This document shows positions 3,401 through 27,103 of a stretch of 64,000 nucleotides of DNA, one piece after another (the first letter of the stretch is position 1; every line of letters starts with the position of its first letter). Below the pieces are notes generated by a model, which did not search any database, had not been told where the DNA came from, and saw only the letters and a list, made by a program, of their open reading frames with translations. The position numbers and the translations under genes were made by a program. This DNA comes from Isoetes taiwanensis (Eukaryota > Streptophyta > Lycopodiopsida > Isoetales > Isoetaceae), in contig JAJEKV010000063.1 of NCBI GenBank assembly GCA_021234155.1, forward strand, positions 1,768,947 through 1,832,946, in the 5' to 3' direction.

Positions 3401-3475
3401 CCAGGTCATGCACAACCATCTGGGCATAATTCTATGCATGGTCATAGTCCAGAGAATATATCAAAATATAAAGGA

Positions 3476-3564
3476 GGGTAAAAGCACCTTGTGGTGTTCC
3501 AATTCGGCTGTCCCCCCTGTCCCCCCAAAATGTGGCGTTGCATCCACCACTTTTGTGGTATGAA
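3476..3564 (+). repeat. Left terminal inverted repeat of the giant DNA transposon
   Basis: Begins GGGTAAAAGCACCTTGTGGT directly after AGGA. An internal palindrome CCACCACTTTTGTGGT follows near 3554. The motif CCAAAATGTGGCGT at about 3531 recurs at the right end in direct, not inverted, orientation. Confidence 0.6.
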
Positions 3565-4679
3565 AGTGTAATTATGGCACCGCTCAGCTGCCGGTATTTA
3601 ACACTAGAGTCATCACATGATGGACCAGAAAAGGTATTTGCACTGTTCGCGTTAAAATTCACATAAAATCAGGGGTTCAATAATCAGTCAAACCCTTCTT
3701 ATATGTTAATATATGGCAGTCATGTTGCATGGGAAAAATACCTAAAAATCTATTGGTCCCCATTCATGAGAGTTACACTTAGGTAAACCCAAGGGGGTCA
3801 AGTCTGTTTCGCTACATGTTTAGATAAAGTAAAACTGTCTCGGCAAGACAATTTTTATGATTTTTTTTATTATTTTTGTATTTTTCTACACGAGTTAGAG
3901 AGTAAGACACAAAAAACTACACCTCAATCCGAGGTCTGAGAAGGGAGATAGGGTTGTTTGAACATGACAGGGTCAAAATTGCTGCTTGTCTTCTGTGAAC
4001 CAATACTGGTTTCCAGAAAGCTGTTTCCAAATCAAATCTCTAACTTTTGTAGGAAAATGAATTTTGACCCAAAATTTTGAATATAAGTATTAGACAACTT
4101 GCTTTATCTAAGAAAAATGTCCATTAGCCTTGATGATCAGGTTTTGATTTTCTTTTATTTTTTCAATTACAAGTGAATGATAACTTATGTCTATATAGGA
4201 GTAAAATGATTCAAAGTCATCCTCAAAAAAATCACATTATGAAAGGTTACCACGATATGGAATCACCCCAAAAACAAACACGTAAAAAAAGCATAGCGTT
4301 TGTTTTCAAGAAATCAAGAAAGGTTCGTATTACCTGAGACCATTACCGGTCCACCTTCTTTTTAAAATTAAGAACTCCCTCATGTTAATCAATTTCAGTT
4401 TCAATTGCGGGATATAAGCACCTCATGAGCTACTCTATTCATTAAAAATAATCAATGCTCCTGATTGAGGTTTAGCATAAACTTTCTAGTGTTCATTCCA
4501 AGTTATCTGTTAGAGTACGCGTTCCATGGATTTCATAAACCTATGTATTGAATGGTGAACTCAAAACTTGTATTTTTTATCTTCTCAAGTTGTGGAAGCA
4601 ATGCAAAAGAATGAAAAACAAATATAAAAAGCTAGAACTATGAAAAATAAAGATAGACTGCTATGTCTGTTTCCCATAA

Positions 4680-4745
4680 CCCGATTGGGTTCCGTGGACG
4701 TTAAAATTTTCTTTCTTCCTTCCTTCCTTCCTTCCTTCCTTCCAT
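4680..4745 (+). mobile_element. LINE/SINE 3'-end fragment with (TTCC)n tail
   Basis: CGATTGGGTTCCGTGGACG then TTAAAATTTTC runs into a (CTTC)n tract. The pre-tail segment is almost identical to the fragment at 54213 and resembles the 3' end of the LINE at about 1 kb, which has an ATTCT tail. I read it as a 5'-truncated insertion of one family with interchangeable simple-sequence tails. Confidence 0.55.
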
Positions 4746-5006
4746 TGCTGGTCCACATGGCTTATGATCATTCAAGAAGCCAGAACATCCTCATCTTAAT
4801 TAGTTGGTTGCTAAAATTGCATTATTTAATGGTAAAGTTGAAGCACAAGCAAACTGAACCTATATGAATCTCCACTCATCCTTCCAAAAATTATGTTAGA
4901 GAAGGTAGAAAATCACCATATCATTGTATAAGTGACAAATGAACAATAAATAAAATTGGTAATCATAATTAGAGAGATTTAATTCTATACCCAATTCGTT
5001 AATTGT

Positions 5007-5432
5007 GGACCATAATGGTCCATGCCCATTTAAATTCAAATCTTACATATAGTAGTATGTTATTTTTAACATGAAATTGGAGATCTATGTTGCCAATGAA
5101 GCTTGAACCCATAAAAATTATATTCTGACAAGCTAAAGTTACTATTATTATACCTAAAGTAGGAACTCTTAAGCAGCAAACACGTGTACTAAGTTTATGA
5201 TAGTAAAAAATAAGAAGATTTCATCGTGTGTTTTGCACTAAGACGATACAAACTATATTTTAAACTTCTATTAGATGTTTCGTCAATCATGAGTTGAAAA
5301 AGAATGCTATCTTGCTTTAAAATGTGGCACGCCTAAGTACAAACCAGAAATGGTCCATGTCTATTTTAAATCAAATCTTGTACATAATATGTTACTTTAA
5401 CATGAAATTCAAGATCTATGTTGCCAAGGAAG
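5007..5432 (+). repeat. Diverged direct repeat pair (5007-5104, 5348-5432)
   Basis: Both copies contain ATGGTCCATG, a CAAATCTT block, ACATGAAATT and AGATCTATGTTGCCAA in the same order, with scattered substitutions and small gaps. The spacing is about 340 bp. Nothing coding is associated. Confidence 0.6.
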
Positions 5433-7456
5433 GGTGACATTAATAAAAAAAATATTGCCTACCATAAAAGATGAGTTTTTTTGTATTATTACCTCAGCTA
5501 AACTCTAATTTTGTGTAGTGGCAACCACTTCTAAATGTAAAGAATACATGGTTATTCACCATATTTAAGTTCATAAAATTCTTTATTATGAATGTATAAG
5601 TGGAATGAATGGAGTGCATCATTTATTGCCCTTAGAAAGCTTATATGTGAGTTTAGTTAAACCACGTTAGTTCTATTTTTGTCCTGGATTCTGTATCGAA
5701 TCTTCTTTAGTGAAAATTGAGATCAACATGACTTATAGACACTTCAAAAAATTATTGGACTGTAGCTCTTAGAGTTGACAACTTATGGCCGCAAGTCTTA
5801 CGTCAAAACTTGTTATGGTAAAGGAGAAACAATTCACAACCTCAAACAGCTTTTTTGAGCTAAAAATGGTTTGACGACTTAGCAAAGAAACATGAAAACA
5901 TGCAAATCAACATGTTTTATCATAAAACGTCAATTACTTTCAATTTTAGAAACGTTTGGACCCCTTTATGCTAGAAAGTTTGAAGAATGCAGTTCTGGCC
6001 TGGCGTAAAAACTGCTGAATTCAATGAGGTTTGGGCAATCACCACAACATATCAGTAAATCTATTGGTCATGAAATTCTCCATGGCCATAAAGAATCGAG
6101 TGAAGATTCCAAAAGTGGTGTGAAATGGAAATTTCTCTTGTTAGATACCTGGGTTTAAGTGGCAGAGGGTATGCTGGACCAATTCTGGTGGATGAACCCA
6201 GAATAGTTCCAGTAACAACTCTAGTGTTAAGAATAGAGTCCCGCTCAGCTGTGGGGGAAATTCTAATTTCAAAAACTAAAATTCAAATTCAAATTCCTAT
6301 TCTTTGGCCCCTTCCTGTTCTTTGCCTATGCCCTGTTCTTTGGCTCCCTCCCTGCTGCGAGCTCCAATCCATTGTGGATATGGATGTCAATGAGGTAATC
6401 TGTACATAAACCGGCATTTCAGACAGGAGAAAACAAAGAAGAACCAAGGAACAAGAAATGTTGAAGAAAAGACGCCAGAGGAAAAGAAGAAGAGAAGAAA
6501 AATTGGAGCTTGCAGAATTGGCAGAAGGATCCGGTTCATCAAGAAGTCCAAGCAGTAAACGCCGTATTGTCCTTAATTTGCTAACGTCTTTCCATAAACA
6601 GACCAAAAGAATGGAGGATAGCACGAAGAAAGAAATTTTACTTGATTTTTTGAGGGATAAAACATTGGAAAAATTCATAGGTGAAGAATTAAAGGATTTG
6701 GAAGCCAAGAGCATCGTTATAACGAGCCTCACGGGACTCCATGCGGTATCAAACTCTCTACCAGCAATTTGCCCTAGCGACCAAGAATATTTGCCTTGCA
6801 ATAATACGTACCACGCCCGTGCAGATTCCGAAATAAGTGACAAAATCAGCCGGCGAGATCTTGGAAAGGTATTAGGTGTTCACCCAAGAAACACGCAAAA
6901 GGCAAAGAAAAAGAGGGAAGAGATCGATTACAATGGTGGGAAATGGGTTTCTTACAAGAGGGGCTAAAAGATTCGATGCAATTTCGGATGAACATATAGA
7001 AAAGATTCAAAAATTTTGGATTGAGAACACGAGTGTCTCCTAACACAAAGGATGTTAGAACTAGAAGATTGGAGAGAAATGTAAGAGAAGAACATCTGCC
7101 CACTATCCGGAGGAATCACAGGTTAGTTTATTTCTGTTATTCATGTTTTCTTAGTTATGGTGCTTAGTGTGGTGGTGCATGTGGTGGTTATTGTGTTGTA
7201 CATTGATTGTGGTGTACTGTATGCAGCATGTGAATTGTGTGTAGTTAACTCTAGTCTGAAATGCAATATTTAATGTTTGGAATATTATTAGAACATGGAG
7301 AATTGAGTACTCCTTTCTTTGGGTGTGTGTACAGTATAAAAATATTTGAGCTATAACTAACTGATCCTGAGATACGAATTTTTGTTGAATAAAGACAATT
7401 TTTTGTCAGATTCAAGGACAGCTCTGTTGGAAAGTATGATATATTAAAAAAAGGAT

Positions 7457-8211: not shown

Positions 8212-8990
8212 TGATGTGATGTGTGGTGTCGTGATGGTGTGGTGTGGTGTGGTGTGGTGTGGGTTGCGTTATGTCCATGGTGTCATGTGGGTGTGTGCAT
8301 GTTAATGTATGATTCAATTTTATTTATTCTCCCCCCTCACCCCACCACACCCCATCTATCCCACCACCATAGACTACCACCACATCTTTGCGACCACCAT
8401 ATTACCACCACATGCACACACATCCCACCATATCCCACGCCACACCCCTCCACCACCACACTCCACCACCACCACATCACACCACAATCCCACAACACCA
8501 CACCACACCACCACCACTACACCCCCCCACCACACTCCACCACCACCACACTCCACCACACACCACCACGACCACCACACCCCACCACCGGACTCCACCA
8601 CACCACATCATAGCACCACACACCACTACACACACCACCACCACCCCCACCACCACACCACTCCACCACGCCCTCCACCACCACCACCCCCACCACCACC
8701 ACCACCCCCACCACCACACCACACCACACACCACTCCACCACACTCCACCACCACCCCCCACCACCACCCACACACCCTCCACCACCCCCCCACCACCAC
8801 AATCCACCACCACCACCTCCACCACCACTCCCACTCCCACCATTTGGTGTATGGTGTGTGGTGAATGGTATGATGTGTGGTGGGGTGTGTGTGGTAATGT
8901 ACTACGGCACTAAGGTGCTGCGTTAAGTGAATATGATGAGTGTGGGGCATGGTATGGTGCATGGTTTGGTGTGGTATACACATCCTAACG
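8212..8990 (+). repeat. (CCA)n / CCACC simple-sequence tract with GGTG arms
   Basis: A core from about 8335 to 8845 is almost purely C and A with occasional T (CCACCACACT-type units). It is flanked by short GGTGTG-rich arms at 8212-8300 and 8846-8985, so the region can fold back on itself. Open frames here translate to His/Thr/Pro or Trp/Val/Gly runs and are not genes. A matching tract lies in inverted orientation at 25.4-26.1 kb. Confidence 0.9.
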
Positions 8991-11171
8991 GTTTAGTGTT
9001 CATTTCATGCAGATGCTATTGTTCAAGAGGTTTACGGACCAACATCGAGAAATTAAGATTCGACTTGAGTTTTTGAGAAGCTAAAACCACGGTTTGTGGT
9101 GAAATTGAAGGACTTCAATAGTTCTTTGTTGCATTAAAAGCGTGAGGATGCAAATGCTAGTGGATGGACTCAATGGGATGAGAACCAAACATCCAAAGAA
9201 TTGCACTTGCACTGCGATGTTTGTAGATCACATGAACTTGGTCAATGCGGGGGCACACCGGCATAAAATTGCAAATCTGGGAAGCTTGTGGAGATCTATA
9301 TTGTGTCCAAAGAGTGAATTAGATGAGTTTCACAAGAAGGCGTGCATTCTTGGAAATTGTGAGTTGTGTGGAATCAAGAAGTTTCAGACTGTCCCATGGA
9401 AGGAAGTGGCGGTAGGAAAGTGAAATGGGAGTACATTGACTATGAAAAGACAAGCGTCTCGAGTTACGGTAGGAGGCCGACTCATCGGTACAATGAGGCG
9501 AGAACCCAAGGAGCTACGGATAAACTGAAAGAAGCGTCTAAAAATCTTTCCCTTTGCATAATTTCAGGTACCAATGGCGGGCAAAAGCGGTTTAAGGATC
9601 TTACGGAGAATCTCCCGGCAGATGCATGTCTCTCGGTAGTGGATTTTTGCGAGAGAACTATACATTCAAGGAACAAGAGGAGGTGCGGTCGATCTTATTT
9701 GGGTCAATAACAGATTACCATTTTGGTTCAAATAACATATCGGTATGACTCAATGGCGGATGAGATTATCAAGGAAACACATTACTATGTATCGGATGAT
9801 AGGGAACCACGATACTTTGTTCGGTGCAACAACGCTTCATGAAGCACCACAAATATCCGGGGCGAGAAAGGAAGGGTTCCAAGCGGACATTATGTGTTTT
9901 CGGATGGTGCGACATCTCAATTCAAGGCTTCTAGACCATTTTACTTTGTGGCTAGGTACACAAAGCGACGATGTCTATATGATGTGGAATTTTTTTGGTT
10001 CTAACCACGGGAAAGGTGAACACGATGGCAAAAAGCTTGAGTTGAAGAGATAGTTAAGACAAGCGCAATTAAAAATGGCTGACATAAAATTGGGTAATGC
10101 TCATGAAGTGGTAGAAGTTGCGAAGAGATGTTTACTTGTGGAACATCAGAGTGGATGAACACATCTGAAACCGAGAAGAGGAAGAATATAAAAAGGTTCT
10201 TTTGGGAAGTCAAGGTGGAGGATATAGATAGAAAGAAAGCATGGGGTGCAGAGAAAGGATTTTGGACACTAGGCGGATCCATTGTGTACATGCATTCAAT
10301 CCACGAATCTCTGTGTAGTTGCACACGAGGGAACTTTCATGCTTCTGCAGCTCTTGCTTGGATGGCATGTGGGGACGGTTGTGTGAACAAGCACTACGTG
10401 GATGATTGGAAACTTCAAGTTATTGTACCATCCTCCAATGTGCATGCGACATTGAGGACCGTAAATCAAGCATGTCCTTGTTCTCCTCCAATCCACGATG
10501 TTAGCGAGAGGCACTTAGAGTTGGTGATAATTTTGTTTGTCGTTGCTCGAAAGGGAATGATGAGGGGGTTGAATTTTGGATTACGATGTGCACAAAACCA
10601 AAATGGATAGTGGAGAAAGACTTCCAACTCAATGGAACATGGTACCTCGCCCGGTGATAGTGTCATAGAAGGTATGTATTACAAGAAGGGCGCAAGATCA
10701 ACCGTCGGCTATGATCTTTGCGATAAAGGCGCCTTAGGCATAGTATTCACAACAGGATCAGTGCAATCGGACTTCACATGCCACCAACTAAGCGTCAAAA
10801 GCAGGATTTGTATATAGGCTGGTTCCTTTAGATGAGGAGAAAATTTTTACGAGAATTACGAAGTTCTTTTTCGATGATGATGAAATGTAAAACCATTACG
10901 TAGTTTTGAGAACTCATGTGAAGTCTTGTGCTTCAAATTTGTGAAAATAAGTTTGTCTTGATTTCTTTTGAAGATTTGAATTCTTTGAAACACTTGATTC
11001 CTTTGTTTGTGAGATGAATTGAATATGAATTTTCATTGAAATGAATCGAGGTTACAATAACAATTATGTACATAAGAAAGATATCTGATGATTTAAGTGC
11101 GAGGTGACTCATGCACCTACATACTTCCCAATACATATGTTCCTCTCGGTTCGACTTTTTTGTTGCTTCTA

Positions 11172-11920
11172 ATCTTAAAACTTCAAGCATGAACACTCTA
11201 ACATCAACTATATCACAGTGCGAAATGTCCACAACCTGCAGTTAACCACACTTTGTCAATAATGAGTTTGGTTTGTCTGCTACATTTAAGTTGACTTACT
11301 AGATCGGGGCAACAATATATTCACTCTTTTTAAGTACCCCCTCACAAATTTGTGCAAAGCGAACATCTGGTGGGGGCCACATGAATGACCATCGGTTTGA
11401 AGAGGCGTTTCGGAAATTTTCACAACATCGAGGTTGTAAAGCTGAAATTATTGTGTCCAAGCAATTCGGGAACACGCACTCAAAGTTTGTTGTCATTGTG
11501 CCACAACAGCAAAATGCAATGAGCAAGCACTAACCTCTCAATATATGCTTACGCCATGCAAGCCCGAGCTATCGAAGTGATATATCCTGGTTTATATCTG
11601 CATGCGAGACACGCGTGGCTTACAATCGAAAACGAGGTCGGTGATGTCCATCACAAGCGAGGCAAAAACATGTGCGGCACTTATCGATTCACATGTTTCC
11701 TTATTGTTTTGTAACTATTTGTGTCCTTGGACAATGTCGAGTGAAAAAGAGGGTCAAAGAAATGAAAGGGATGGCTCATTCCTTAGAGAATCAAGTAGTA
11801 TTCCATGTATCTACAAACATATGCATATCATCTGGCACAATCCTGATGATCACAAATCAGATGAAAGTATCACCTTGAGAAGAGGAGGATCAATTGATCA
11901 TTGAACCACTGCGTATCAGC
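11172..11920 (-). pseudogene. Ulp1-like (C48) cysteine protease region of gene B
   Basis: On the minus strand the region shows WFNDQLILLF near 11900, resembling the W-L-N-D motif that opens Ulp1 domains. Near 11390 it shows PLQTDGHSCGPHQMFALHKF, with the Gln of the oxyanion hole and the catalytic Cys in the QxxxxxCG arrangement. A GTAAGT donor follows and an acceptor CTGCAG at about 11240 leads to VDISHCDIVDVRVFMLEVLR. The catalytic His segment is not clear and frames are interrupted. Ulp1-like proteases cleave SUMO-type modifiers and are known passengers of plant CACTA and Mutator-like transposons. Finding one beside a transposase gene supports the mobile-element reading. Confidence 0.55.
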
Positions 11921-12189
11921 TTCCAAAATTTTGATGTCGGTGGAGCTAATCCACGGCGGTTTCAGTTCCACTCGGCACCACTTCCGGATGTGTATTTGGC
12001 TTTAGATAGGGGACTGCGAAGCTCTATCATCTCTAGTTCTAAACACACACGAGAACATTTGCTCACAATCCATTCAAATATTTTAAATTGAAAAAGTACA
12101 ACACATATCATAGATTTTTTTTTACTTATATTGACTTTCAAAGAGTTTTACAAGATTCATTTATGAAAATACTTGTCGAGCATTTTCAT

Positions 12190-12830: not shown

Positions 12831-13444
12831 TCTTGTCCAGGATCCGGGGTTTCTTTGTCAACTTCATCACCTGCATCCGCATTTGGCTCATATTCAGCAC
12901 CAAAACTTTTTTTCTGGTGAAGGACCCCGTACAGAATGAATCTCAAGGGAATTAATTTCCCCCTTTAAATCAGATGCACTAGGAATTTCTTCGTGATGGC
13001 TTCCAGTTGCAGTAGCATTTATCTCTGCAACATAATTGAAATGAGGAAGACCACATAAAAATACAAAAAACTAAATCATGTATACTTGATACGACTGCAT
13101 TCAGTTGACTATCCAAATTTCGTTTTGGAGTCTCCACGCCGTCAGAGCAGCTGGGATTGACTTAGGAGTATCAAATGGGGTGAATTCTAGGTACAACCGG
13201 GAGGTATCTTGCAGTCTCATAACTGATCGAGGCGTGGATAACTGTTGGATATCCTTGGTCTCAAATTTCTGCAATTCTGCAAACACTAAGTCAGTAGACC
13301 TGTGACAACATCAGTAAACATTAGTTAAGGCACTTGTTTGCAGCGAATCTATATTGTTTGCAGCGAACAATATCAAGCCTGGTGAGTTGACAACCATTCA
13401 AGAGGGTCACGCACCAGGCTTTTTACTCTCTTTTCGATGTTCCT

Positions 13445-14029
13445 TGTTTGGGGTCTGGGTTCGGGAACTCCTGGAAGACAGCCCTCTGTGAGGACCCGTG
13501 GATCTAACAGGAGAGTCCGGGGGACTATGTCACGCGGGATTTGCTGAAAGAGAAGAAAAAGAAGAGAACAGAACAAATGAGAGAAAGATGATAAGCTTCC
13601 TTGATATCAATGATGAAAATACATGAGCTCTCGCAATAGAGAGAAAACTGAAAGGAGACAAGACTCAAAACTCATCTAAAAAACTTGTGAGCTAACTCTA
13701 CTCATATATATAGTACAATGGCCTTGGGCCCAATATAGACACTCGATGGTGATCTGGGTTGGAGCTCACGGAAGGAGGCCGATTTGAGGAATGTTGGCGG
13801 TGCCTCTTGAAGTGCCTAGAATCACTTGTTGGCCGACGCGGGCGGTGGCGGGCCGTCACTTACTTGGCGGCGCCTCTTGTTAACGACCAAAGGCTTTATT
13901 TGCGTGGCTTCTTTGCTTAGTCTTCGCGGAGGCTTGGATGTCGACCCGTGGTTGGCCGAGGATCTTTGAGCTTGACCTGGTGCGGCGTATGCATGAATAG
14001 TCACATGCGGGGAGGCCGCGGGACTAACA
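13445..14029 (-). repeat. 3' LTR of the gypsy fossil
   Basis: 585 bp, homologous end to end with 23880-24456. It is bordered at 14030-14040 by a polypurine tract (TTTGGGGGGGAG on the minus strand) immediately before TGTTAG. Confidence 0.9.
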
Positions 14030-14059
14030 CTCCCCCCCAAAGCGACACTTTCGAGTGAA

Positions 14060-17000
14060 GAAAAAAGGAGGAAGCGTTTGGGCGGGGAAGCCATCGATCG
14101 AAAAGTGATCCTCCGGGGAGTGAGGGCGGGCACCATTATGGTGCTTGGCTGATGAGATCTTGGCGTGATTGAAGAGCTTGAGGTGTGTTTTGGCCAAAGG
14201 CAGGATCAGCATCAATAAGAAAAGCGAGGCGTACCATGTCTTCAAGTGCGGCGTGGGCGTACGAAGAAATGTACGACACTCCATGAGGAGAGAGCAGTCC
14301 GAAGGCCAAAGGCACCGACGGCATTTGGATTGCGATGAAAAATGGGGCGCTGCCGATTTAAGGAGCTTAGCAAAATGCATTTGAGGGCAGCGCAAAATCC
14401 TGCTTGAAGATGGGCGGAAGGATCGGGGTGAGGTGGAGGCGTTACGCAAGAAGGTGTTGAGACCATGAAGCGCATCCGCGGGCTATTTGCCAACCACGCT
14501 CATTAGCAATGTAGATCAATTGGTGGTGTTGTCGAGTAGCACCTTCTTCCCAATGTGATCGGCCGAACAAAGCGTGGATCCCAGGAGATCCGTCGAGATC
14601 GAGGTGGTGTCCGGCTGCATGACCATCCATGACCTTGGTCCAAAAAGGAAGGCGCCAATCGAAGTCGGGGAACACGGGGCGTGGAGGTGCATGAGGAAGC
14701 ATAGGGAGAAGGAACCATGCGTGGGCGTGGGTTGGCGATCTCCACTGATTGGCCGACAAGATCGGATCAAGTGCGACACCAGCGATCCCAAAGAAGCAGA
14801 GTTTGAGAGTTGGCAGGGGAGGGCTATCCCATCCGTGGGGACCGTCTTGCTATCCAACAGAGCCTGTAACTGATTGTAACCAGCGAGGTGCTGCATATAG
14901 ACTTGGGCATAGGGAAGATCTTCGGGATGTCCTAGATACTTCCTTATTTGTTGCAGCGCTTCCGCTTGCCAGAGAGATAAATGATTGGCAAGCTCAGGCA
15001 TGTACTCCTGATGAAAAGTTTGGGTCTGAGCAGGATCCGCAAGATATGGATTGTTATCCTGAAGCACCCATTGCGCAGTGGGGTCACCCTGAAAAAGCTG
15101 GCGTGGCCCATTGCCAAAGTTTTCCTGTGTATCACCCAGATAGAAATCATGAAAGATATAAGCCATGGGCTGAACCACGCGGAAAGTGAGAAAGTCTGGA
15201 TCGGCACAGTGTATGAGATCAAAGACAACAAGGGCACAGCACAACCCTTTGTCTTCAATGGAGAGTTCGGCCAAATCAGAGAAAAATCAGCAACGCCGGT
15301 GGGATATCCACGGGGCCATCACCGTGCCACTTTGAAAGGAAGAGGTGGCGTCGAGCAACCACATAATCATGATAGCGGGGAGGGAGGGAAGTCCACCGGC
15401 ATTGCGTGAAGAATTGAAGTCACGGGCGTCAAGTTTGGCTTGAGCCTCACCGCCAGAATCGAATAACTTTTGCGGTTGTTGTTCGAGATCACGGATCCGA
15501 TTGTCCCTTTCGAGTAGCAGGCGTGGTAGTCCACGGACCCGTTCGAGAAGGATTGACCTGGGAGGAAGATTTCCCGGTGTATTGAGGCGAAGCGGCAATC
15601 TCCAGCGTCATCTAATATTTTACATTTTACGCACCTCGGTAGGCTGATCTTGAAGAGAGGTGAGTGAGAGGAGGTGTAGAAAAGCTGAGCCGTCAAAGGA
15701 GGCGACTTGAGCGTCGGGCTGAAAGATTTTGAACTTGAGTGCTGAAATTTTCACCACGATTCAGTACAAGGCATTGAGTTTAGCAATATCTTAGATCCTT
15801 GGTATTTTCTCGGGAAGCTGACTTTGGACTTGTTGTGCTCCAATAGAGTCTGAATTTGGATTTGGGCTGAGCCCGCTTGATCTGCGAGTTGGCTGACTTG
15901 AGCTTGTGTACTCTTGAGATCGCATGAGCACGTAAGAGAGCTTCATGCTTGTCTTGAAGTTTGGCCTCAAAGTTGCAACAGGCGATTGCGGCTTGAAGGT
16001 CTTGGTGTCTGCGATCGGAGGCCTCGAGTGCCCGTTGAACCCGCTCATAAGAGCGTCTTGGGATTCTGTAACTTAAGAGCAGCGGCAGGCATCCTGGCGA
16101 TCTTGATACAACAAGCGGCGAGGGTGTTGTGGTGGTGGAACTGGGCTGTTGCCTGGTTTGGGAGGTTTGGGAAAAATGGTGTGAAGTGGATGGTGTAGCG
16201 GAGGAAGAGGCGGTGACATGAGTGTATTTGTGGTCATGACCGAGGGGGAAGATGGGCGTGATGTGCCAACTTGGTGATTGATTGGAAGGGAGCGGCCCGA
16301 GTGGAATTATGAGAATTTGGTGGTGTGGGAGGAAGTAATGGCGGATGAGGGCTTGAAAGTGCCCTCCCGCGTAAACTCGAGAAATGGAAGTGGTACAGAA
16401 GGCGGTCCATTTCTTGGAGAAAACGATAGAACATCATTTGGGGCCAATCTATGTGGTGTTTGGGTGTGTAGCGATGAGGACCAGGTTGTAGAAAGGCTTA
16501 TTGATATGGGTGTTCTTGATAGAATACCCAAGGAATTTCCGCATACAAAAATTTAACAAAGGTCTCGTGAGGCTTGTCGATATTGGTCGGGGCGATGGAC
16601 ATTGGCATGATAGCGAGGTGCACCAAACTCTGTGACATCAATATCCTGTATAGCAGACCATGATACACAAGGAGTGTGCAAGGGAATATGAAATACCTCA
16701 GAAATCAAATGTTGAGTCAATGAAATAGTGGTGCCATCGACCACAGTGGTGTAACCTTGCGGGCTGTTAACAATATTGGCGATGAACTGCTGCAACTGGG
16801 CAGGATTTGGAGCCGGAAGTTCCATTTGAGAGAATTCGTAAAGCTGGTGTCGTTCAGCGACTTCTTTACTGGGGCCAACAAGGGCTTCACGGAAAGTGGG
16901 CGTCAAGAAGGATACAGATGCAAAAAGGGCCGGATCCTTGGGAGCAGTAGCTTGAAGTGTAGAAAATCTTGGGGCAGCCATGGGAATGATTCTGAGAGCG

Positions 17001-17800
17001 AAAGAGATGCCAAAGGCGGAAGGCGAAAAGTCGAAACACGAGGAGGATGAAGGCGGAGAGGAACGAAAAAGGTTTGTTTTAGGGCGCAACCTGGGGGCTT
17101 AAGAGGTATGAAGAGTTGAAAGCGGGGAACCGATTGATGATGCAGTGTCAAAAGATGCGAAGAAGGGGATTGAGAGGCAAAAATTTGGCTAAGTCCCCAA
17201 AAACGTAAGGGAGAAGCAATGAACGGTGAGGATGAGACGTGAAAGAAAGATCGGATGTGACAGATGGCAAAGGACATCCATTAATGTTAACCAGGCGTGG
17301 AAAGAAGGAATGGCATTCAATCGCCGGGCAACTCGAAGTGGGATATCATTAAAAGGAATGTGTCGGAAGGTACCATGGCTAGATATGCGGCGGAGAACGA
17401 TTCTCCTTTTAGAAACGACCTTGCATTGCAAACACGTTGGCGATTTGTGTGATTGGTCCACGTCGACAAAGGAGGTCCTCGATTGGCTATATAAGGCGAA
17501 CCGAGAAACGAAGGCATCCGATGGCGCTTCGGTATGGCTGCTGGCGGCTTGAACGAAGATTGCACCATGCCCACTAAGCGTCGGAGTGGATCACTTGTAA
17601 GATGAATTGTGCGGATCTCTGGGCTGCCACAACCGCGGGCATTCGTGATGGACGGCTGGTGTCTTGGGATGGCTGAACATCCCACCAAGACCAGCGGGAT
17701 GGAGGTGGTTACGCGACGCGCTTGGGATCCAGGAGCGGAACCTCTACCATCTCCTCGCATCACCTGCGCTCCGAACCCAGGAGTAGAGGGTTTTTCCTCT
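14060..17800 (-). other. Extra sense-strand open-frame region between integrase and 3' LTR
   Basis: About 3.7 kb, with sense open frames of 252 residues (15274-14516, starting MAELSIEDKGLCC) and 178 residues (17089-16553, starting MRPKTNLFRSSPP and containing SFLTPTFREALVGPSKEVAE). Some plant gypsy lineages carry an additional ORF at this position. No membrane-protein or other named domain is recognised. Confidence 0.5.
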
Positions 17801-17979
17801 TAGGACTTAGTAGATAGGGCTCGAGCCCGTTTTTGTATATATAGGCGGTGCCCATAAGCGAAATAAATTTGGGGCTGCGCCCACATTTTGTAAAAAAAAT
17901 CTCCACTATAATATAATCTACACGCCTTTCTAGTCACTTTACGTGGTGTTTGATTCTTGAGCTGTCTACGTGTTGGGAT

Positions 17980-20900
17980 GTTCACTTTACGTTTGGATGA
18001 AATGCTTTGAGGCGAAAACCATTAACTAATGTAGGTAATGGAGTGCCATCTAATTTAATTGTGAGTTGGAAAACACTTGGTCTAACCACTTGAACAATTT
18101 GATAAGGGCCAAGCCAAGCGAAACTTGAGTTTACAGGAAAATTTTTGTACACGGAATCATAAAGAAGAACCAAATCTCCTTCTTTGAATGTTTTTGTCTT
18201 CAAGCGTTTGTCATGTAAAGATTTTTGCAAGCTGTTGTCCATGAAGAACACGAATATAAGCATCCCTTGAAGTTCATCCAACTGTTCTAATTGATAGACC
18301 CGTTCTTTGAGAGCATTTGGTGGATTATGAGCGTGCTTTGAAAAAGGAGTGTTGGAAGGATATATTCAAATGGCATGAGAGCTTCACGACCATAAACCAA
18401 TTTAAAAGGAGTGTGACCCGTAGCAATCTTGAAACAAGTATTGTAGGCCCAAAGAAACGAGGGAAGTTTTATACGCCAATCATGCGGGAAGCGTCACAAA
18501 TTTTCTTGAGAATGGTGACGAGTTTTGTTGGTGCTTTACGCCAACCCATTGCCTTGAGGATAGTAAGGTGTGCTCTTGTGATGATGTATCGGGGAGATAA
18601 TCCGTCGGCTCTTTGATAGTATGATTGATGAAATGAACACCACGGTCAGCGACCAGCTCAGGTGGGGCAGCGAATCGGCGTGATGATTTGTTGATAGAGG
18701 ACTCGCAGGTGCTTTGCGGCGGTGTTGTATGCGGAAGTGCACAAGCTTCCGCCCATTTGGTGGCGTGGTCGGTGAGAACGAGGAATGTATCGAACACGCG
18801 TGTGTATAGAGGATCTATAGGTCCCACAAAGTCCATTCCCATTTCTTTGAAGGGAAGTGGCGTGGCGGCCGGCGTCAAGGGAAGAGCGTCACGGGCGTGG
18901 GGCGCCCCACCCGGCAAAGCGTCACTGCGTCTTGGGCGTGGGCGTGAGCATCTTTAAAGAGCGTGGGCCAATAATACCCGTGAGAAGGATTTTTGCGTGC
19001 GTGGTGTCACCATGAAAATGACCACCACCAGAACCCTTGATGAGCTTCTCGAACAATGTGCGGAACTTCATGAGGTAGAACACGGCGTCGAAGGATGGTG
19101 TCCTTACCCTTTTGTAGAGATGTCCAGGCAACCATGGTGTAGTCCGCGGACCTCTCCGGAGAAATTGATGGCGGCGTGATTGTCGCTTGGGAGAGAGGCG
19201 TCTCATCTTACGGTGGAAGAGCACCCTGAGGAGGATGCTGCTGAAAATCATGAAACCAATGTGGTGTTGCCGTGACTAAAAGAGTTGAGCATCGGGGAAG
19301 GCGTCGAGACCCTGTTGCGGGGGATCATCCGTCGCGGATGCGTGAAAGATAATCCGGAACAACATGAGATTTGCGGCCTTATGAGCGATTTCAAAAGGAG
19401 CAAATTCTTGGAGAAGAAGGACAACGAGCAATGCGGCCCGTGGGCGTGGATTTGTTGATCAAATAGAGAAGTGCTTGGTGGTCCACAAAGAACTTGATTT
19501 GATTTGCCAAAAGGTAATGACGGGCGTTGGACCTGAGAAAATGAGACCCAAAGCTTCACGCTCAGGTGGCGAATAGTTCTTCAGTGAGTAATTGAGTTTT
19601 TTGGCGTAGCGATTTGGTTTATTATTAATGCGCATCATATTCTTGAGAAAGAACAGCTCCAATAGCAAGCGCCGGAGACATCGACATGAGCGTGAAAGGG
19701 CTTGTCCCATTGAGGAGGAACAAGAACCGGTGCACGAGTAAGCAAAAGCTTCATTTGTTGGAAAGCGACTTCAGCTGGGAATTCAAGCCCGGTGGATTAA
19801 ATCACCGTGAGTTTATGAATGGGATGCGCAATGGCTGCCGATCCGGTATGAAGGTGGAGTAATAATTGACCTTTCGGGGAAAGAGCGTGTCTCTTTGATA
19901 TTGGCTGGTGCTTGAGCTTTGAGCACACTGGCGATTTTGGCGAGGGTCGGTGGTGATTCCGCTTTGGCGACAACATGGCCTAACGGAACACGAAGTGGCT
20001 TAAAAGGTGCATTTTCGGGATTGAGACTAATGCTTAGGACTCATCACATTTCTGGAAGGCGAGTTCCAATTTATCCAAATGGTCAGCCATGGGCTGTAGG
20101 CGGAGAAGTCATCTTGAAAAATTTGCAAGAAGGGATTTTCCTTCATGAAATCATGAAAAGCGAGAGCATGATTCGTTGAAATGTTGAAGGAGAGTTGGAT
20201 AATCCAAAAGGAACCACCTTGTAGGCAAAAGTGCCCCACGGGTGGTGAAAGTGGTCTTGAGTTGATCAGATTCTTTGATGGAGATCGATTGTAGCGGAAA
20301 AACCATCCATAAAGGAGTACATCTCATGTCCGACCACTTCTTCGGAACTTGGTGCGTGAAGGGAAGTGGAAAATGATCACTTCCGTGGCACGATTGAGTT
20401 TCAGATAGTCTACACGGGCCGAATCTTACCATTGTGCTTAAGGGCAATGGCGATAGGGCTCACCCATTGAATGTTTGACCTCATAGATCAAACTGCGGCA
20501 AAGGAGTTTGTCAATTTCGCCTTGGCCGCGATCCGCGGTAGTCGGGTTGAGCACATCTTGTCGTTGCTACAGCGGTCGTGCATCGATTTGGTAGGAATGG
20601 TGAGTTCCCCAAGCTTTTGTTGATTCCCGAAGATCTTTGTAACTCCGGTGAAAATGTGTTTGAATTTTTTGAGCAGTGGCGGCCACTGATTACGATAAGG
20701 AGCCGAAAGGTTTGCGGACAATGCTTTGAGACGGGTTGATTGTTGCCAACATCCACAATCTCGACTTCGAGTGCGAATATGGGGTATGACTTGGTATCAC
20801 GGACAATGTGTGCGGGAGGTTGGAGCATAACAGGATCGTGGCACTGCGTGGTGAAAAAAGAGGTTGCTTTCGGTTTCATCTAGCGGTGGTTGCTTCATGG

Positions 20901-21600
20901 CGGCGTGTCAAAGCAGGAGTTGCAGGAGTGTCGACATCCGAAAAGTGATCAGCGTTGGATTCGATTGCAAGGAGCCGGGTAGGGGTCAAGCAAGGCAGCC
21001 GGCTGGTCACGATCAAGAGTCATTTCTCCCCAAGGATCGGCATATTGGGGTAGGATGATAGAAGCGCACAGCGCAGGTGGAGCCTGAACTTGATAAATAT
21101 CCCGAGCTTCTTGAGGAGAATCGATTAATCACGAGAGAGAGGGTTCGCATTGTCAATGAAATGATCCACTTTGTTTGCAAGTCCATGGTGGCATTGAGAT
21201 GACCATCTGTGATGACTAAGCGGTCCGTGGCCCGATAATGGATACTCTTTGCCCTGGCGGAGAAAAGGTCGCCTACCAGCATTTCATAGTCACACGGATC
21301 TTCGCCTGACTTTCCACACTCCAAATTCCATGGGAAGCGGAGATCACCTATGTTGATGTGAAGAATAGGTGTGGCGCCTTGAGGTCGCGTGATATGGCCA
21401 TTAGCCAATTTGATGTCATATGGGGCCACGAAAGAGTTGTGTGATGCCCATTTGTTGGCGGAGTTTATCCGTGATGAGATTGACCGCACTACCTCCATCG
21501 ATTTGAACATGGTTGACTTTCGATTTCCACCGTGGCATGTAGAGTGGGTGTAGAGGTAAATACGGCCCCAACTAAAAGCGGTTGGGAGTGGTAAGCTGGT
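17980..21600 (-). pseudogene. pol region (protease, RT, RNase H, integrase) of the gypsy fossil
   Basis: In order on the minus strand: a retropepsin-like stretch (about 21.5-21.0 kb, with DIKLANGHITRPQGATPILH), RT (about 20.8-19.9 kb), RNase H (about 19.75-19.3 kb), integrase core with MGMDFVGPIDP and DHATKWAEACALP (about 18.9-18.5 kb), and an integrase C-terminal domain (GDLVLLYDSVY, WLGPYQIVQVV; 18.28-17.98 kb). The domain order assigns it to Ty3/gypsy. Decayed. Confidence 0.85.
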
Positions 21601-21899
21601 CCTTGAGAGCGGGGAGTTTTAAAATAGTTGCCAAGCTTAAAGGAATTTTGATCTTGGCAAGCTCCTCTTGGAGTTCGAGAGGTACATGAGAAAAAGGATC
21701 TGCTTTGGTTCCACCAGTGCGGGGAGTCGTGGCGGGGAAGCGGCAACTTCTTTGAGTAAGTCAACCTGGGCTGCAATATTGGGATATGTCCGAGGCGTGG
21801 AGGTTGAGATGTTGAAGGGTATCTTGTCTTTGTTGAGCTCTAGTGGTGGCATGAACATTGGCCAATGTGCGGCCTTTGGCTTGCATGAGATTCAAAATG

Positions 21900-23750
21900 C
21901 TTTGGCGAACTTTGGGCATGACATTTGGCATGAGCTTTTCCAAGTCGGTGCAAAGTGAACCTTTTTTTTCGTCCCTCATGAGGAATGGTGTCAACCGCAA
22001 AGGCAAAGGTTGCGTGTCTTTCCGAATAATAGTCAAGGGGCGTGATGCCTTGGTCCGGCGTGAAACTAGACCAACCCAATTTGACTATGACGGGAGGATT
22101 AAGTGCTTGAAAAATTTCCTCTTGGGCTTGTTGATCCGGTGAGGTTGATTCTTTGGAGCTGGTTGATAGCGTGATTCGAGGCTCTTTGGGGCTTCTTAAG
22201 AACTGGTCAGCGGGCCTTGTTTGCCATTCGCGCAAGCCGAGTTGGTAAGCCCGTGAGGCGGACTGATGTGGTCCGATTTGTGCGTGAAGGCGGACTGAAC
22301 TTGTGGAAGTTGAGGACACCGTGGTGGTGGTATGACCCCATTCTTGGCAAAGTGATAACACCGAGCTTTAGAAGGATCAAAAGGAGGGCGTTGGTTGGAT
22401 CCCCTTGGTTGGTCATTCTGCGATAAAGTTGCGTGGGCTGCACCTGAAGAGGTGGCTGCTGATAGTGCGATTGTGGCTGAGGTGTGGTTTGTACTTGATA
22501 AACCATTTTGTTGCGGAACGGTGTGGGATGAGTGCGAGTGCACTCTTCCGTGGCATGATTGCACATGTTGCATCGCTTGCAATGAGGCGGGCCATTGGTG
22601 GAGTTGCACTCATTGGCCAAATGGCCTTGATATTTGCAAATATGGCACCAGATTTGACTGCGCTGTGGATTAGCGTGTTGAGGCTGAACAGCCGTTTGTG
22701 GAACCATGACGGGTGGAATGAACGGGAGCTCTTGAAGAGCCACGCCTCGGGAGGAAACATTGACGGAGTGATTGACAAGGTCGATAGCCTGCTCCAAAGT
22801 TTTGGGCCTTGGTATTGATCATGAGTCGAATAGCGGGGAGGAAGTCCTTGGAGAAACCGGACCAAAATCGGCTCGTGTAGGGTACTCCTTGAGCTTACTT
22901 AGCGAGAATGTGAAGTCGATCCCATAAAATCCCCGGCACTCTCGTGGGCTCTTGTTGAAGTTCATTGAGTTGCTTGAGATGAAGTTGATCATCATCCGTG
23001 GTCCCGTAATGAGACAGAAAAAGCGGTCGCATTTCAGACCAGATCTTGTTTCCAATGGCTTTTGTTGGACATGAGCCATTGATGAGGAGAGCCACGCGAT
23101 TGTGGTGGAAAAGATGTGGAATTTCGGTTGAGGTTGCGCGTGACCATTTAGGACAGCTAGAGCCTCAAATTCTTCCATGTGGGCCCGAGCACTTTGGTCT
23201 AACGGTTTGCCTTTCGTGTTCTTAGAAGGTGGGATAAGTCGATTTTAGAGTCCGAAAGGTAGATGTGAAAGTCTTTGGGCTGGACAGAACAGGATAGTGA
23301 GGATATTGAGGTTGAGGTGGATGTGGCATTGTGCCCGGCGGACCTCGATGAAGGGGTGATCGCGATTGAGAAACCGAAGTAGCCGAGCATTGGTTTTGAG
23401 ATCCGTAAGGTTTAAATGAGGGAAGAGTCGTGGGGAACGAGGGAAAGGATATATTCCCCGGTATAAAAGGAGACATGTGGACAGCCGTGCCCACCCGGGG
23501 AGATGATGGTTCTTGAAGGAAGAGGCGTATGGCCCCGAAGAATGATGGATGTAGGCATGTTCAGGGGTGTGTGAAAATCTTGTTGAGAAGGTTGAGGCGG
23601 ATAAGGCTCCCGATAGTGATGAGGGGACCGAGGTTGTGAGCAATGTTTTGCACGCTTTGGGGGGAATGGGGGCGAGGCCCCGACACGAGGGGTGGGGTGG
23701 CGGATCGAGCCCTCGGCCAAGATGGCCTCTATGTCATAAGCAGATCCATA
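21900..23750 (-). pseudogene. gag region of the gypsy fossil
   Basis: The region contains a tandem zinc-knuckle segment at about 22585-22700 (CHICKYQGHLANEC, then CKRCNMCNHATEEC), typical of nucleocapsid. The upstream part is Pro/Gln/His-rich, as in plant gypsy gag. Decayed. Confidence 0.75.
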
Positions 23751-23879
23751 CATGTCGAAACGGTTTCCGACGCCGATGGCGCCTCAAAGCGAGATGTTCT
23801 TCGGGGCGTGAAATTACTTTTGGAACATGGCGACGTATGAAGAATGTAGGAGAAAATCAGACCCGGCCGGCGGCGGCGG

Positions 23880-24456
23880 TGTTTTGGGGTGCGGGTTGGG
23901 AACTCTGGAAGACGACCCCTGTGAGGACCCGTGGATCTAACGGGGAGAGTCCAGGGGACTATGTCACGCGGGATTTCTTTGAAAAGAAGAAAAAGAAGAG
24001 AACAGAGAACAAAATGAGAGAAAGATGATAAGCTTCCTTGATATCAATGATGAAAATACATGAGCTCTAATAGAGAGAAAACCTGAAAGGAGACAAGACT
24101 CAAAACTCATCTAAAAACTTGTGAGCTAACTCTACTCATATATATAGTACAATGGCCTTGGGCCCAATATAGACACTGGTGATCTCGGTGCCGACTCACG
24201 GAAGGAGGCCGATTCTTGAGGAATGTTGGCGGTGCCTCTTGAAGTGCCTAGAATCACTTGGCCTTGGGCGGTGGCGGGCCGTCCACTTGTGCAGCGCGGC
24301 GCCTCTTGTTGATGACCAAAGGCTTTGGTTGCGTGGCTCTTTGCTTAGTCTTCGCGGGAGGCTTGGATGTCGACCCGTGGTTGGCCGAGGATCTTTGAGC
24401 TTGACACAGTGCGGCGTATGCATGAATAGTCCCGTACGGGGAGGCACAGACTAACA
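23880..24456 (-). repeat. 5' LTR of the gypsy fossil
   Basis: 577 bp, with the other copy at 13445-14029. It contains a TATATATA box near 24140 and an AATACATGAGCTC block. Read on the minus strand, it starts TGTTAGTCTG and ends CCCCAAAACA. A primer site just inside was not identified with certainty. Confidence 0.9.
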
Positions 24457-24470
24457 TTCTGTTTTATATA

Positions 24471-24525
24471 TATCTAAAGTGCCCCCTAAAATGAGCGGCG
24501 ATCTCATCCGGGGGCACTTTAGATA
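24471..24525. repeat. Perfect 16-bp inverted repeat hairpin
   Basis: TATCTAAAGTGCCCCC (24471-24486) pairs perfectly with 24510-24525. Inside the loop, ATGAG (24491-24495) pairs with CTCAT (24503-24507). It lies 14 bp from the edge of the gypsy 5' LTR, in gene B sequence. Confidence 0.85.
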
Positions 24526-25119
24526 CAATAAACAAGGACAAGCAAAAAGAGACTAGCCCAGCCCGGGATGGAAGAGACTAAGCGGGGATGAAAGAGACAC
24601 GAGTACAAGCATCGAGACTTCCCAAACCTTGCTTTCACCCCTCTTTGGACTTACTTGTGTCTATTGGTTCTTGTGGTACCACTTTCGAACACCAAAAGCC
24701 AAAAGCCATGTGTCTCGATCATAATGTGGTACAAGCGGGGGCGCAGCAGGTTCTAGAGTGTGCGCAAAACAAATTCAAAATCAATAGAGTCTTTAGGCGA
24801 GGTTTAGAGATGATAATATTTACCTCAAATGGTGTGATAGACATGGAATTTGATATGGTGGTGGTGCATTACGCTATCTGGCGGCAACATTTTACCCTCC
24901 CATTTCGGACAACGTCCACAAAATAGACAACCTTCATCACCCTCTTCTTACGCCTCGGGAAGCATTGGAAGTGCAGGATCTAAAGGAGTGTCATGACCAC
25001 TACTTTCGAAAAAAATCTCAAATCTTTGCATTTGAGGTAGCAGCCTCAGCGATAAGTCTTCACATGCCTTTAGCTCAATTTCAGGTTCTGTTAATTCCTT
25101 ATTTAATTGTTTCAGCCCG

Positions 25120-25375
25120 GGCAACTTTGTACCATTTAGCTCTTCATCCTTTAGTTAAACACAACCCGAACACCCTCCGCTTTTCGGATTTCTTTGTCAT
25201 GATTGATTGCCATCTGTGCAAATCAGCTCTAATTTCTGATGCTTTATGCTCCATCAACTCAATCTTTCTTTTGATATCATTTTTCCTATCCTCGTTTGCT
25301 TGCAATCGTTGCTTGCATCTATCAAACCTAGCTGATGTTGCAGCCAACCATTCCTTCACAAGTCGCCGCCAGTCG
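25120..25375 (-). pseudogene. Gene B coiled-coil exon
   Basis: An open stretch starts VKEWLAATSARFDRCKQRLQ and continues through DIKRKIELMEHKASEIRADL, with heptad-like spacing and many Lys/Glu/Arg residues. It is followed after a frame change by LNGTKLPGLKQLNKELTEPE. It lies between the large intron of gene B and the gypsy insertion. The exact exon borders are not resolved. Confidence 0.5.
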
Positions 25376-25439
25376 CAAAAAACAAAACACTACGTATATA
25401 TCGACCTCCTAATATAGTAAGCCCGCGTCGATGGAAAAC

Positions 25440-26095
25440 CACAATCACACACCACACAACACAAGGTAGTCTCTACACACCACCACATACCACACACCAC
25501 ACAACATCATTTTTAAGTACACACCACACAACACGTGTGTGTGGTGGGTGGTGGTGGTGGTGGTGGTGTGTGTGTGGTGGTGGTGGTGGTGGTGGTGTGT
25601 GGTGGTGGTGGTGGTGGTGTGTGTGGTGGTGGTGAGGTGTGGTGGTGGGGTTTGGTGGTGGTGGTGGTGGGGGTGTGTGGTGGTGGTGGAGTGTGGTGGT
25701 GGTGGAGTGTGGTGTGGGACATGGTGGAGTGTGGTGATGGGGTGTGGTGGTGGGGTGTGGTGTGGTGGGGTGTGGTGTGGTGATGGTGGGGAGTGTGGGG
25801 TGTGGTGGTGGGGTGTGGTGTGGTTGTGGTGGGTGTGGTGGTGGTGGATTGTGGTGTGGGACATGGTGGAGTCGATGGTGTGGTGTGGTGGTGGTGGAGT
25901 GGTGGTGGTGGTGGAGGGTGTAGTGGTGGTGGTGGAATGTGGTGGTGGTGGTGTGTGTGTGGTGGTGGTGGTGGTGGAGTGTGGTGGTGGTGTGTGGTGT
26001 GGGAGTGTGGCGGTGGGAGATGGTAGAGTGTAGTGGTGGGAGATCGTGGGGTGTGGTGTGGGACATGGTGGATGCCAACAACTCACCACCACACA
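25440..26095 (-). repeat. (CCA)n / GGT tract in the gene B intron
   Basis: About 650 bp of GGTGGT-type sequence on the plus strand, hence CCACCA on the coding strand of gene B. Short CACACC-rich arms occur at both ends. It mirrors the tract in gene A intron 1 at 8.2-9.0 kb. The long open frames here are low-complexity artefacts. Confidence 0.9.
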
Positions 26096-26310
26096 TATCT
26101 CATCTATCATTCTAGCATCCATTGCACAAATGCCCCACAGATGGCATCATAGAGACACAACATGACAATACAGCCAACATGATGCAAAATGGTAGTAGAC
26201 ATACCTGATTCTTGAAGTGGATTTGATGTTACCTTTTCTGTGTTGATAGAAACAACTAGATCAAGCTTGAGATTTTTTTCTGTTGTAACACAACTAATAA
26301 TTGAACATAC

Positions 26311-26870
26311 CTGCAATGGCATGTTTTGGTCTCAGAACATTGCTCTGCTTTTCTGTTTTGATTGTGAGTTCAGATTGAATGTGTGGTCTAGAGGAACCTG
26401 ATTTGGTTTTTTCCCTATCATCTTCATCATCCCTATCACTTTTACTATTTTCCTCCTCGTCAGGTTGGATTTGCCTATGCTTTCTCTTGGGTCTAGAAGA
26501 ACTGGCCTCTGCTTTCTCATCGGGAGTTTTATAATAATCCGAGAAGCTCTTCAATTAAATGCCTCCCCTTTATATGCGGATAATAAGCCTTTGTCCGGGT
26601 TTCGGGGAGCCATTCCGCCCCATGTATGTGGCTTCCCTGTAATTCTTTTGTAAATTTGCATGAACTCTTTGTATTGTTCATTGCTCCTGTACAAGAAAAC
26701 ATATGCCTTAATTTTTGCAGTTTGAACAAAACATTTGGGGGAAAATACCTGTAGCTAGATTTATTTGGAACTCTGTCACCCCAAAGCTTCTTTAGATCTT
26801 CGTGGGGCACAATCTCTTGTTTGAGGAGAGATTTCATCGTGTAACCAGTGGCGTTCAATTCTGACTCCAT
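26311..26870 (-). pseudogene. Gene B exons 1-2, amino-terminal region
   Basis: Exon 1 encodes MESELNATGYTMKSLLKQEI, then VPHEDLKKLWGDRVPNKSSY and stops at a GT donor (26748). A 62-bp intron ends CTTGTACAG. Exon 2 continues in frame with SNEQYKEFMQIYKRITGKPH and WGGMAPRNPDKGLLSAYKG. After a frameshift near 26550 there is KTPDEKAEASSSRPKRKHRQ, a Lys/Arg cluster resembling a nuclear signal, then a long Asp/Glu/Lys stretch ending at a GTATGT donor. No named domain is recognised. The splice sites and clean frame argue that this was once a real gene start. Confidence 0.6.
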
Positions 26871-27015
26871 TAGGGTTCAATCGGCAAGAAGTGGCAAAAA
26901 AACAGAGGAAGAGGTGATTCTTTCTTAATTCAAAAAGGTGGACAATGACGTGGCATAAAATTCAAAATAACCGACGCTCATTAATTCGCACTCCCGCAAT
27001 CTCCGCTTCGGTATG

Positions 27016-27099
27016 CACCACCCGATTCTACCACAAAGGTGGTGCCAAAATGTGGCGTCAAAATGCACGTTTTTGATACACCACAGCGTGCTTTTACCC
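27016..27099 (-). repeat. Right terminal inverted repeat of the giant DNA transposon
   Basis: Ends ...GCGTGCTTTTACCC at 27099, followed by AGGA. Its reverse complement begins GGGTAAAAGCACGCTGTGGT. It contains CCACAAAGGTGGTG near 27031 and CCAAAATGTGGCGTC near 27047. Confidence 0.6.
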
Positions 27100-27103
27100 A
27101 GGA

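Follow-up and report, generated by a model that had tools for sequence, protein, structure and literature searches.

Large plant transposons of the CACTA (En/Spm) type carry several genes and subterminal repeats. Elements of the Sola superfamily encode a transposase of the three-aspartate (DDD) type, make 4-base-pair (bp) target-site duplications and have terminal repeats of 11-1124 bp with variable sequence; they are mostly 2-9 kilobases (kb) long, some exceed 15 kb, and they occur in Physcomitrella and are rare in flowering plants (PMC10741241, in its section on this superfamily; the description is also tabulated in PMC9033089). In amoebozoa, the chimeric Sola2-Fanzor elements combine a transposase with Fanzor1, a homologue of TnpB, and show AT-rich duplications (PMC3627910, in the part that describes them). 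Among Mutator-like elements (MULEs) of the Vandal type, Kaonashi and KIU hold an Ulp1-like domain in an extra gene and have been linked to the anti-silencing VANC genes (PMC13317346, in the portion on these elements). Here we analyse a stretch of 64,000 nucleotides from Isoetes taiwanensis (contig JAJEKV010000063.1, positions 1,768,947 to 1,832,946), called the window throughout, in which positions 3476-27099 very probably represent an inactivated copy of a cut-and-paste lycophyte DNA transposon, about 10.0 kb long, present in many copies and carrying two genes, A and B.

The ends of the element are marked by the following features, given in window positions.

3472-3475, no strand: left target-site duplication, AGGA
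3476-3497, plus strand: left terminal inverted repeat, 22 bp
3527-3538, plus strand: subterminal motif AAAATGTGGCGT, left end
3544-3560, plus strand: subterminal inverted block CCACCACTTTTGTGGTA, left
27029-27045, minus strand: subterminal inverted block GCACCACCTTTGTGGTA, right
27047-27058, plus strand: subterminal motif AAAATGTGGCGT, right end
27078-27099, minus strand: right terminal inverted repeat, 22 bp
27100-27103, no strand: right target-site duplication, AGGA

The left terminus, GGGTAAAAGCACCTTGTGGTGT on the plus strand, and the right terminus, GGGTAAAAGCACGCTGTGGTGT on the minus strand, are identical at 20 of 22 bases, and both follow the pattern GGGTAAAAGCAC(CT/GC)TGTGGTGT. A scan of the window for inverted 22-mer pairs, with exact 8-base seeds, at least 20 matches and six tandem-array stretches masked, returned 203 pairs, and the pair that a sequence-only reading of this DNA had picked out, with AGGA outside both termini, is the sole one of them with equal 4-bp flanks. 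The boundary drawn in that reading also holds, as matches elsewhere in the genome mostly begin at the terminal base or a few bases from it. An inverted block, CACCACyTTTGTGGTA, lies about 55-70 bp inward of each end, and its left copy CCACCACTTTTGTGGTA is a possible binding site for the transposase. The motif AAAATGTGGCGT has the plus orientation at the left and right end alike. Its 11-bp core has exactly two occurrences in this DNA of 64,000 nucleotides; AAAATGTGGCG has one in each element end and none elsewhere in the window.

The genome (1,658,258,908 bases in 1110 contigs) was searched for further copies by ranking candidate places and scoring the best ones. For the left end (window 3472-3672), the best 40 of 1125 candidate places were scored, the window included, and the 39 others matched with 96-97% identity across 135-139 bp and began at query base 2-6, where base 5 is the terminal base. 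For the right end (window 26903-27103), the best 40 of 761 candidate places, again with the window, gave 99-100% identity. When the 40 left and 40 right best-scored ends were combined, 10 pairs lay no more than 45 kb apart, the window's own included, against about 0.02 expected by chance; all ten had the order of an element and none had another order. The two ends thus do occur together, as the sequence-only reading supposed. Nine of the ten pairs are flanked by exact 4-bp duplications, and in the tenth, copy C208, the flanks differ by one base (TGTT/TATT).

Partners were also sought for 10 of the 30 unpaired left ends, in one 1.5-kb slice at 9.2-10.7 kb; so narrow a slice misses longer or truncated copies, and this sample of unpaired left ends is biased against pairing. 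Four of the ten had a right end with an exact duplication in the slice. Overall, 14 of the 16 pairs whose flanks were read have exact 4-bp duplications (AGGA, TGAT, TCTT, TGTA, TTAT, ATGT, TGGC, CGTT, TTAT, TTTT, TAAA, CTAA, CCCA and AGCT), the exceptions being C208 and C1110, and no target sequence is common to the fourteen. A DNA transposon with 4-bp duplications, as first proposed from the window, is therefore borne out. The most complete view comes from copy C1028, found through gene A, which measures 9,049 bp, has both ends exact with AGCT on each side, and holds an open gene A frame of 526 amino acids together with an unaltered open NIF frame; it lacks the stretch corresponding to window 11774-12163. 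Divergence between copies, as Kimura two-parameter (K2P) distance, is 0.026-0.062 over the last kilobase (five copies) and 0.062-0.114 over the gene block (four copies).

Two elements outside the family are nested in the window copy.

3602-6226, no strand: nested element with no recognised domain, ends CACTAGAGT...ACTCTAGTG
13445-24456, minus strand: nested Ty3/gypsy long terminal repeat (LTR) element, LTRs at 13445-14029 and 23880-24456

The first is a 2,625-bp insertion with TTAA at 3598-3601 and 6227-6230, and comparison of copies showed it to be missing from C973, C907, C943, C1055 and C208. It gave no Pfam match at E 0.01 with one frame per strand, and none that was credible at E 1 with six frames. 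Its CACTA-like ends, CACTAGAGT/ACTCTAGTG, combined with a TTAA target make an odd pairing. The gypsy insertion spans 11.0 kb; of its target TTCTG the right copy is intact and the left copy now reads TTCCT, and its LTRs are about 9% divergent (K2P 0.086). Weak reverse-transcriptase and RNase H matches inside it fall below cut-off. Downstream of its integrase-like stretch lie sizeable extra open frames at 16553-17098 and 14516-15286, for which no Pfam family was found at E 0.01. Without the two insertions the window element is about 9,978 bp long, and sister copies measure 9,934 and 10,013 bp. The length before the gypsy insertion had first been put at 12.6 kb, which is too long: once the insertion at 3602-6226, missed at that time, is subtracted as well, the length before both insertions is about 10.0 kb.

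Gene A lies on the plus strand at about 6.4-10.9 kb and converges with gene B.

6423-7121, plus strand: amino-terminal coding part of gene A (basic region and next segment), frame-broken
8405-8828, plus strand: (CCA)n array within an intron presumed for gene A; C973 and C907 also have an array here
9013-10870, plus strand: catalytic part of gene A, with VVDFxEN, FSDGxxSQFK and HGKGxxDG

Using the degenerate pattern HGKGxxDGxG, one intact gene A homologue was identified, a protein of 690 amino acids called L065. In its stricter form the pattern returned 4 loci from the genome contig collection, one of them a relative (L065); in the viral contig collection the degenerate form gave 61 loci with no relative among them, and the stricter form gave none. 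L065 sits at positions 990-3062 of a contig filed as a bacterial metagenome-assembled genome (isolate Cli_8) in a prokaryote collection, and is probably eukaryotic contamination. Inspection of its ends by eye revealed no 4-bp duplication. When the window was searched with L065 by plain tblastn, E 0.36 was the best value, and the homology of gene A and L065 therefore rests on an alignment that allows frame changes. Made with no hand-made reading, this alignment scored 91, against a mean of 39.3, a standard deviation of 3.9 and a maximum of 53 for 60 shuffled proteins. The sister copies scored 95 (C973), 80 (C907), 81 (C943) and 148 (C1055), and C208, which is without the gene, scored 37; the controls, with 20 shuffles for each of the five copies, had maxima of 44-75. 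For the amino-terminal part at 6423-7121, local alignment with the amino end of L065 scored 48, a value without a shuffle control.

A genome search with gene A gave 97 matches from the best 88 of 11,285 candidates scored. Two of them, L142 and L143, are stop-free over at least 474 residues, and in their alignment with L065 the motifs VDFxEN, VSDD, FxDGxxSQFK, GKGxxDG and KR are kept, with the three aspartate (Asp) motifs invariant. From these motifs we read gene A as a predicted DDD transposase, one that presumably moves the ends described above; the gene that had been called transposase-like in the window is homologous to an intact 690-residue protein with three conserved Asp. A reverse-strand frame at 7.45-8.1 kb, in the presumed gene A intron, is coding-looking and gave no credible match.

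Gene B lies on the minus strand at about 26.9-11.3 kb, and the following parts were assigned to it or to its surroundings.

26180-26869, minus strand: first coding part of gene B
25541-25999, minus strand: second (CCA)n array, also there in C973 and C907
24860-25389, minus strand: part of gene B or of a third gene, with a RING-like half-motif in L146; weak, best E 0.028
13100-13310, minus strand: coding-like segment of gene B upstream of NIF, similar in C1055 and L146
12164-12817, minus strand: FCP1/NIF-like domain of gene B, with DFNGV
11289-12006, minus strand: Ulp1-like (peptidase C48) segment of gene B, with QTDGHSCG

The start codon is at 26869, about 230 bp inward of the right end. The FCP1/NIF family (PF03031) was matched in the unaltered window frame with E 7.6e-5 and 22.9 bits, against a cut-off of 21.8, and in unaltered frames of C1055 (E 9.2e-5) and C1028 (E 1.5e-15, 57.7 bits). 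Searching the genome with this domain gave 151 matches from the best 150 of 3,944 candidates scored, and the ten best are all open over 191 residues. The canonical first motif of FCP1, DxDx, has two Asp. In gene B this motif reads DFNGV or DFNRV (window, C973, C1055 and L146), and because Asn takes the place of the second Asp in all four copies, phosphatase activity is doubtful.

The Ulp1 family (PF02902) rose above its cut-off only in a C1055 sequence hand-joined from several frames, a favourable way to test for it (E 2.8e-5, 24.5 bits against 20.7). Across two frames, both C1055 and C1028 show a readable His motif (GHHW), Asp motif (FDSSG) and Cys motif (QTDGHSCG). Judged by these motifs and the hand-joined sequence, a Ulp1 domain in gene B is probable, with less certainty than FCP1/NIF. 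In L146, which belongs to the C1028 copy, a RING-like half-motif, CPFCGRC...CSHQYHIPC, lies upstream of NIF on the same strand, and gene B may have a RING-like part as its third domain. Comparison of the gene B pieces with the PDB by sequence and profile found no relative, the whole search giving only two matches, both at E 0.6 or higher. No relative was found in the viral contig collection for the proteins of gene A, gene B and L065 or for one alignment, nor did the terminal pattern of the element match there, and Pfam searches of further stretches of the window and of the copies added no domain.

The arrangement of the two genes was then counted over the genome, using 88 of the 97 matches for gene A (nine extra-piece rows omitted) and 150 of 151 for gene B. 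Gene B lies within 15 kb of 31 of the 88 gene A matches, the window included, and in all 31 the genes are convergent, with B downstream of A. No pair within 15 kb has any other arrangement, and 0.24 pairs of any arrangement would be expected by chance. The second gene converging on gene A, already noticed in the window, is therefore part of a fixed order. Relative to the scored ends, gene B within 25 kb is on the inner side of eight left ends, with one case against expectation, and of eight right ends, with none against. Gene A lies within 30 kb on the inner side of four left ends and five right ends, the window being counted in both, and its strand is always the expected one. Genes A and B and these ends travel together, because A and B are linked in a fixed way, both co-locate with the ends, and C1028 unites both ends with open gene A and NIF frames. 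The two genes are thus found in the same elements, C1028 included. Both conditions that the sequence-only reading had named as refuting it, ends that never occur together and genes in elements with different termini, were checked and did not refute it.

As a mechanism, the gene A protein would bind the 22-bp terminal repeats and the subterminal repeats, excise the element and join it at a staggered cut, producing a 4-bp duplication with no fixed target sequence. Gene B, starting just inside the right end and running toward gene A, would encode one or more proteins with haloacid dehalogenase (HAD) domains of FCP1/NIF-like type and Ulp1-like cysteine protease domains.

The window copy itself is dead, old and broken. 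Its death is evident because it has stops, nested insertions and frame changes in the gene A core, of which there are at least eight over 509 bp (9542-10050). Both genes are broken in the window, and open frames exist in other genome copies. One could suppose instead that the copy is intact and that most of the gene A frame changes reflect sequencing errors, since the I. taiwanensis assembly is Nanopore-based, though polished (PMC8566536, in its account of the assembly), and gap columns are frequent between copies. Some indels of the window may indeed be assembly errors. An intact copy is nonetheless very improbable: the copies also differ by about 3-11% substitutions, gene A carries in-frame stops, and two insertions are nested in the element, the gypsy LTRs being about 9% apart. 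The decay and the two unrelated nested insertions could also be taken to mean that the ends match by chance and that the genes between them are debris of the host or of retroelements, with no relation to the ends. We rejected this explanation, whose probability is negligible, on the strength of paired copies with exact duplications at unrelated genome places (14 of 16 pairs) and of C1028, in which both ends accompany open frames for A and B.

Several results nevertheless weigh against the reading of 3476-27099 as a dead copy of a many-copy transposon with two genes. Six of the ten unpaired left ends had no equal-flanked right end in the 1.5-kb slice; among these, the right end of C1110 carried 4 mismatches and its flanks were unequal, and five had no right end in the slice. 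Copy C208 has neither gene A nor an exact duplication. No Pfam family and no PDB chain matched gene A by sequence or profile, two structure predictions for it had mean predicted local distance difference test (pLDDT) scores of 36 and 35 and were not used, and the C907 score of 80 barely exceeds the control maximum of 75. Frame-by-frame Pfam searches detected NIF in one of three sister copies (C1055) and not in C973 or C907. Ulp1 in its own window frame reached E 0.051, below the curated cut-off, with E 0.013 in another window read-through, and Pfam found no Ulp1 in unaltered frames of C973, C907, C1055 and C1028. The combination of FCP1-like and Ulp1 parts proposed in the sequence-only reading therefore stands for FCP1/NIF, which is above cut-off in the window frame, and for Ulp1 it stands as readable motifs, the window score being below cut-off. 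Gene B may be one gene or several. In favour of the transposon reading, in four coding pieces compared between copies, 43 of 92 differences fall at the third codon position, against 24 and 25 at the others (binomial P 0.008), which is a weak sign of past selection, as the copies share ancestry and are not independent.

What gene B does for the element can be explained in two ways. Gene capture by plant transposons is common. Gene B could accordingly be a passenger, made of pieces of host FCP1-like and Ulp1-like genes that a master element picked up a single time and that were then copied along without a role in transposition. This cargo explanation is a serious possibility that falls somewhat short of even. 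It is consistent with the captured Ulp1 on record in MULEs (PMC13317346, in the part on such captures), and the loss of the canonical second Asp of FCP1 in four copies is as in a degenerate phosphatase. Three observations argue the other way: all 31 linked pairs have gene B in the convergent position next to gene A, the NIF part runs for 191 residues without a stop in every one of the ten best matches, and gene B starts about 230 bp inward of the right end, as an element gene would. They would fit a gene retained for an accessory role, shielding the element or its transposase either through the editing of SUMO-type tags or through a block on silencing. We propose this role tentatively, and think that it and the cargo explanation are nearly level. 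A published parallel is offered by the Ulp1-bearing Kaonashi and VANC genes of Vandal MULEs, which have been associated with a loss of silencing (PMC13317346). A bolder form of the accessory role, which we regard as unlikely, is that lycophyte DDD transposons keep a functional fusion of SUMO-protease-like and FCP1-like proteins, perhaps with a RING-like part, that would counter silencing or control the transposase via tags, in parallel to VANC and Kaonashi and with an independent origin.

The ends of the family match many places in this lycophyte genome, yet its predicted transposase matches no Pfam model, and an automated annotation would be likely to overlook it. The presence of Ulp1 motifs in another lineage of transposons suggests that plant transposons may have acquired such proteases repeatedly and for a reason, and the copies with open frames make this idea directly testable.

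Outside the element, the window contains other repeats and frames.

29158-29715, minus strand: open frame that, from the impression of its translation, we take to resemble the carboxy end of a long interspersed nuclear element (LINE) reverse transcriptase
30447-31997 and 35462-36089: one diverged family of tandem repeats, in two blocks with about 3.5 kb between them
41724-42284 and 52897-53465: direct repeat of 570 bp with 91.6% identity, the probable LTRs of another retroelement, about 11.7 kb long

Among known systems, the element resembles CACTA (En/Spm) in being a large plant element with short terminal repeats. CACTA elements differ in having CACTA ends and a 3-bp duplication (PMC10741241, in its entry for them), against GGGTA ends and 4 bp here, and membership of CACTA/EnSpm was rejected on the GGGTAAAA termini and the 4-bp duplication, against CACTA/CACTG and 3 bp. 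Mutator/MULE and hAT membership were rejected on the 4-bp duplication in 14 of 16 pairs, against 7-12 bp and 8 bp respectively. Ginger membership was also rejected, on GGG...CCC termini against TG...CA and on the lack of any Pfam match for gene A, integrase models included. Kaonashi and KIU are likewise plant DNA transposons with an Ulp1-like part in an extra gene, and the Kaonashi elements differ in being Mutator-like without terminal inverted repeats; the portion of PMC13317346 on these elements mentions no FCP1-like domain. A literature search, its wider part judged by title and the start of the abstract and made mostly without subscription papers and apparently without Repbase Reports, found no transposon joining FCP1 and Ulp1. 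Sola2-Fanzor offers a second parallel, an element with a 4-bp duplication, a transposase and an unrelated second protein (PMC3627910, in the same part); there the second protein is Fanzor1 and the duplications are AT-rich, and here the second gene is FCP1/NIF-like with Ulp1 motifs.

The closest likeness is to Sola, compared by description only: the 4-bp duplication in 14 of 16 pairs, the 22-bp terminal repeats within the range of 11-1124 bp, and a seed-free plant as host, as Sola occurs in the moss Physcomitrella; the three Asp motifs in the three-sequence alignment are consistent with a DDD transposase. We lean towards placing gene A in or near the Sola superfamily. The mobile mechanism is not newly seen, because a 4-bp duplication with a DDD transposase is the description given for Sola (PMC10741241, in the section cited above). 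Gene A might instead come from a superfamily not yet described, as no Pfam model covers it and a literature search found no two-gene element of such layout, the terminal sequence itself not being queried. This appears rather unlikely, since the duplication of 4 bp, the shortness of the terminal repeats, the DDD pattern and a seed-free host are all in line with Sola (PMC10741241, PMC9033089, in their descriptions of it), and the separate lineage announced in the sequence-only reading may amount to a new family of Sola-like elements and not to a superfamily of its own. Unlike Sola, the window element has an additional gene, gene B, in which an FCP1/NIF-like domain and Ulp1 motifs are found. It represents a real and well-supported transposon family, most likely Sola-like, whose second gene is unusual and consistently linked to the first.

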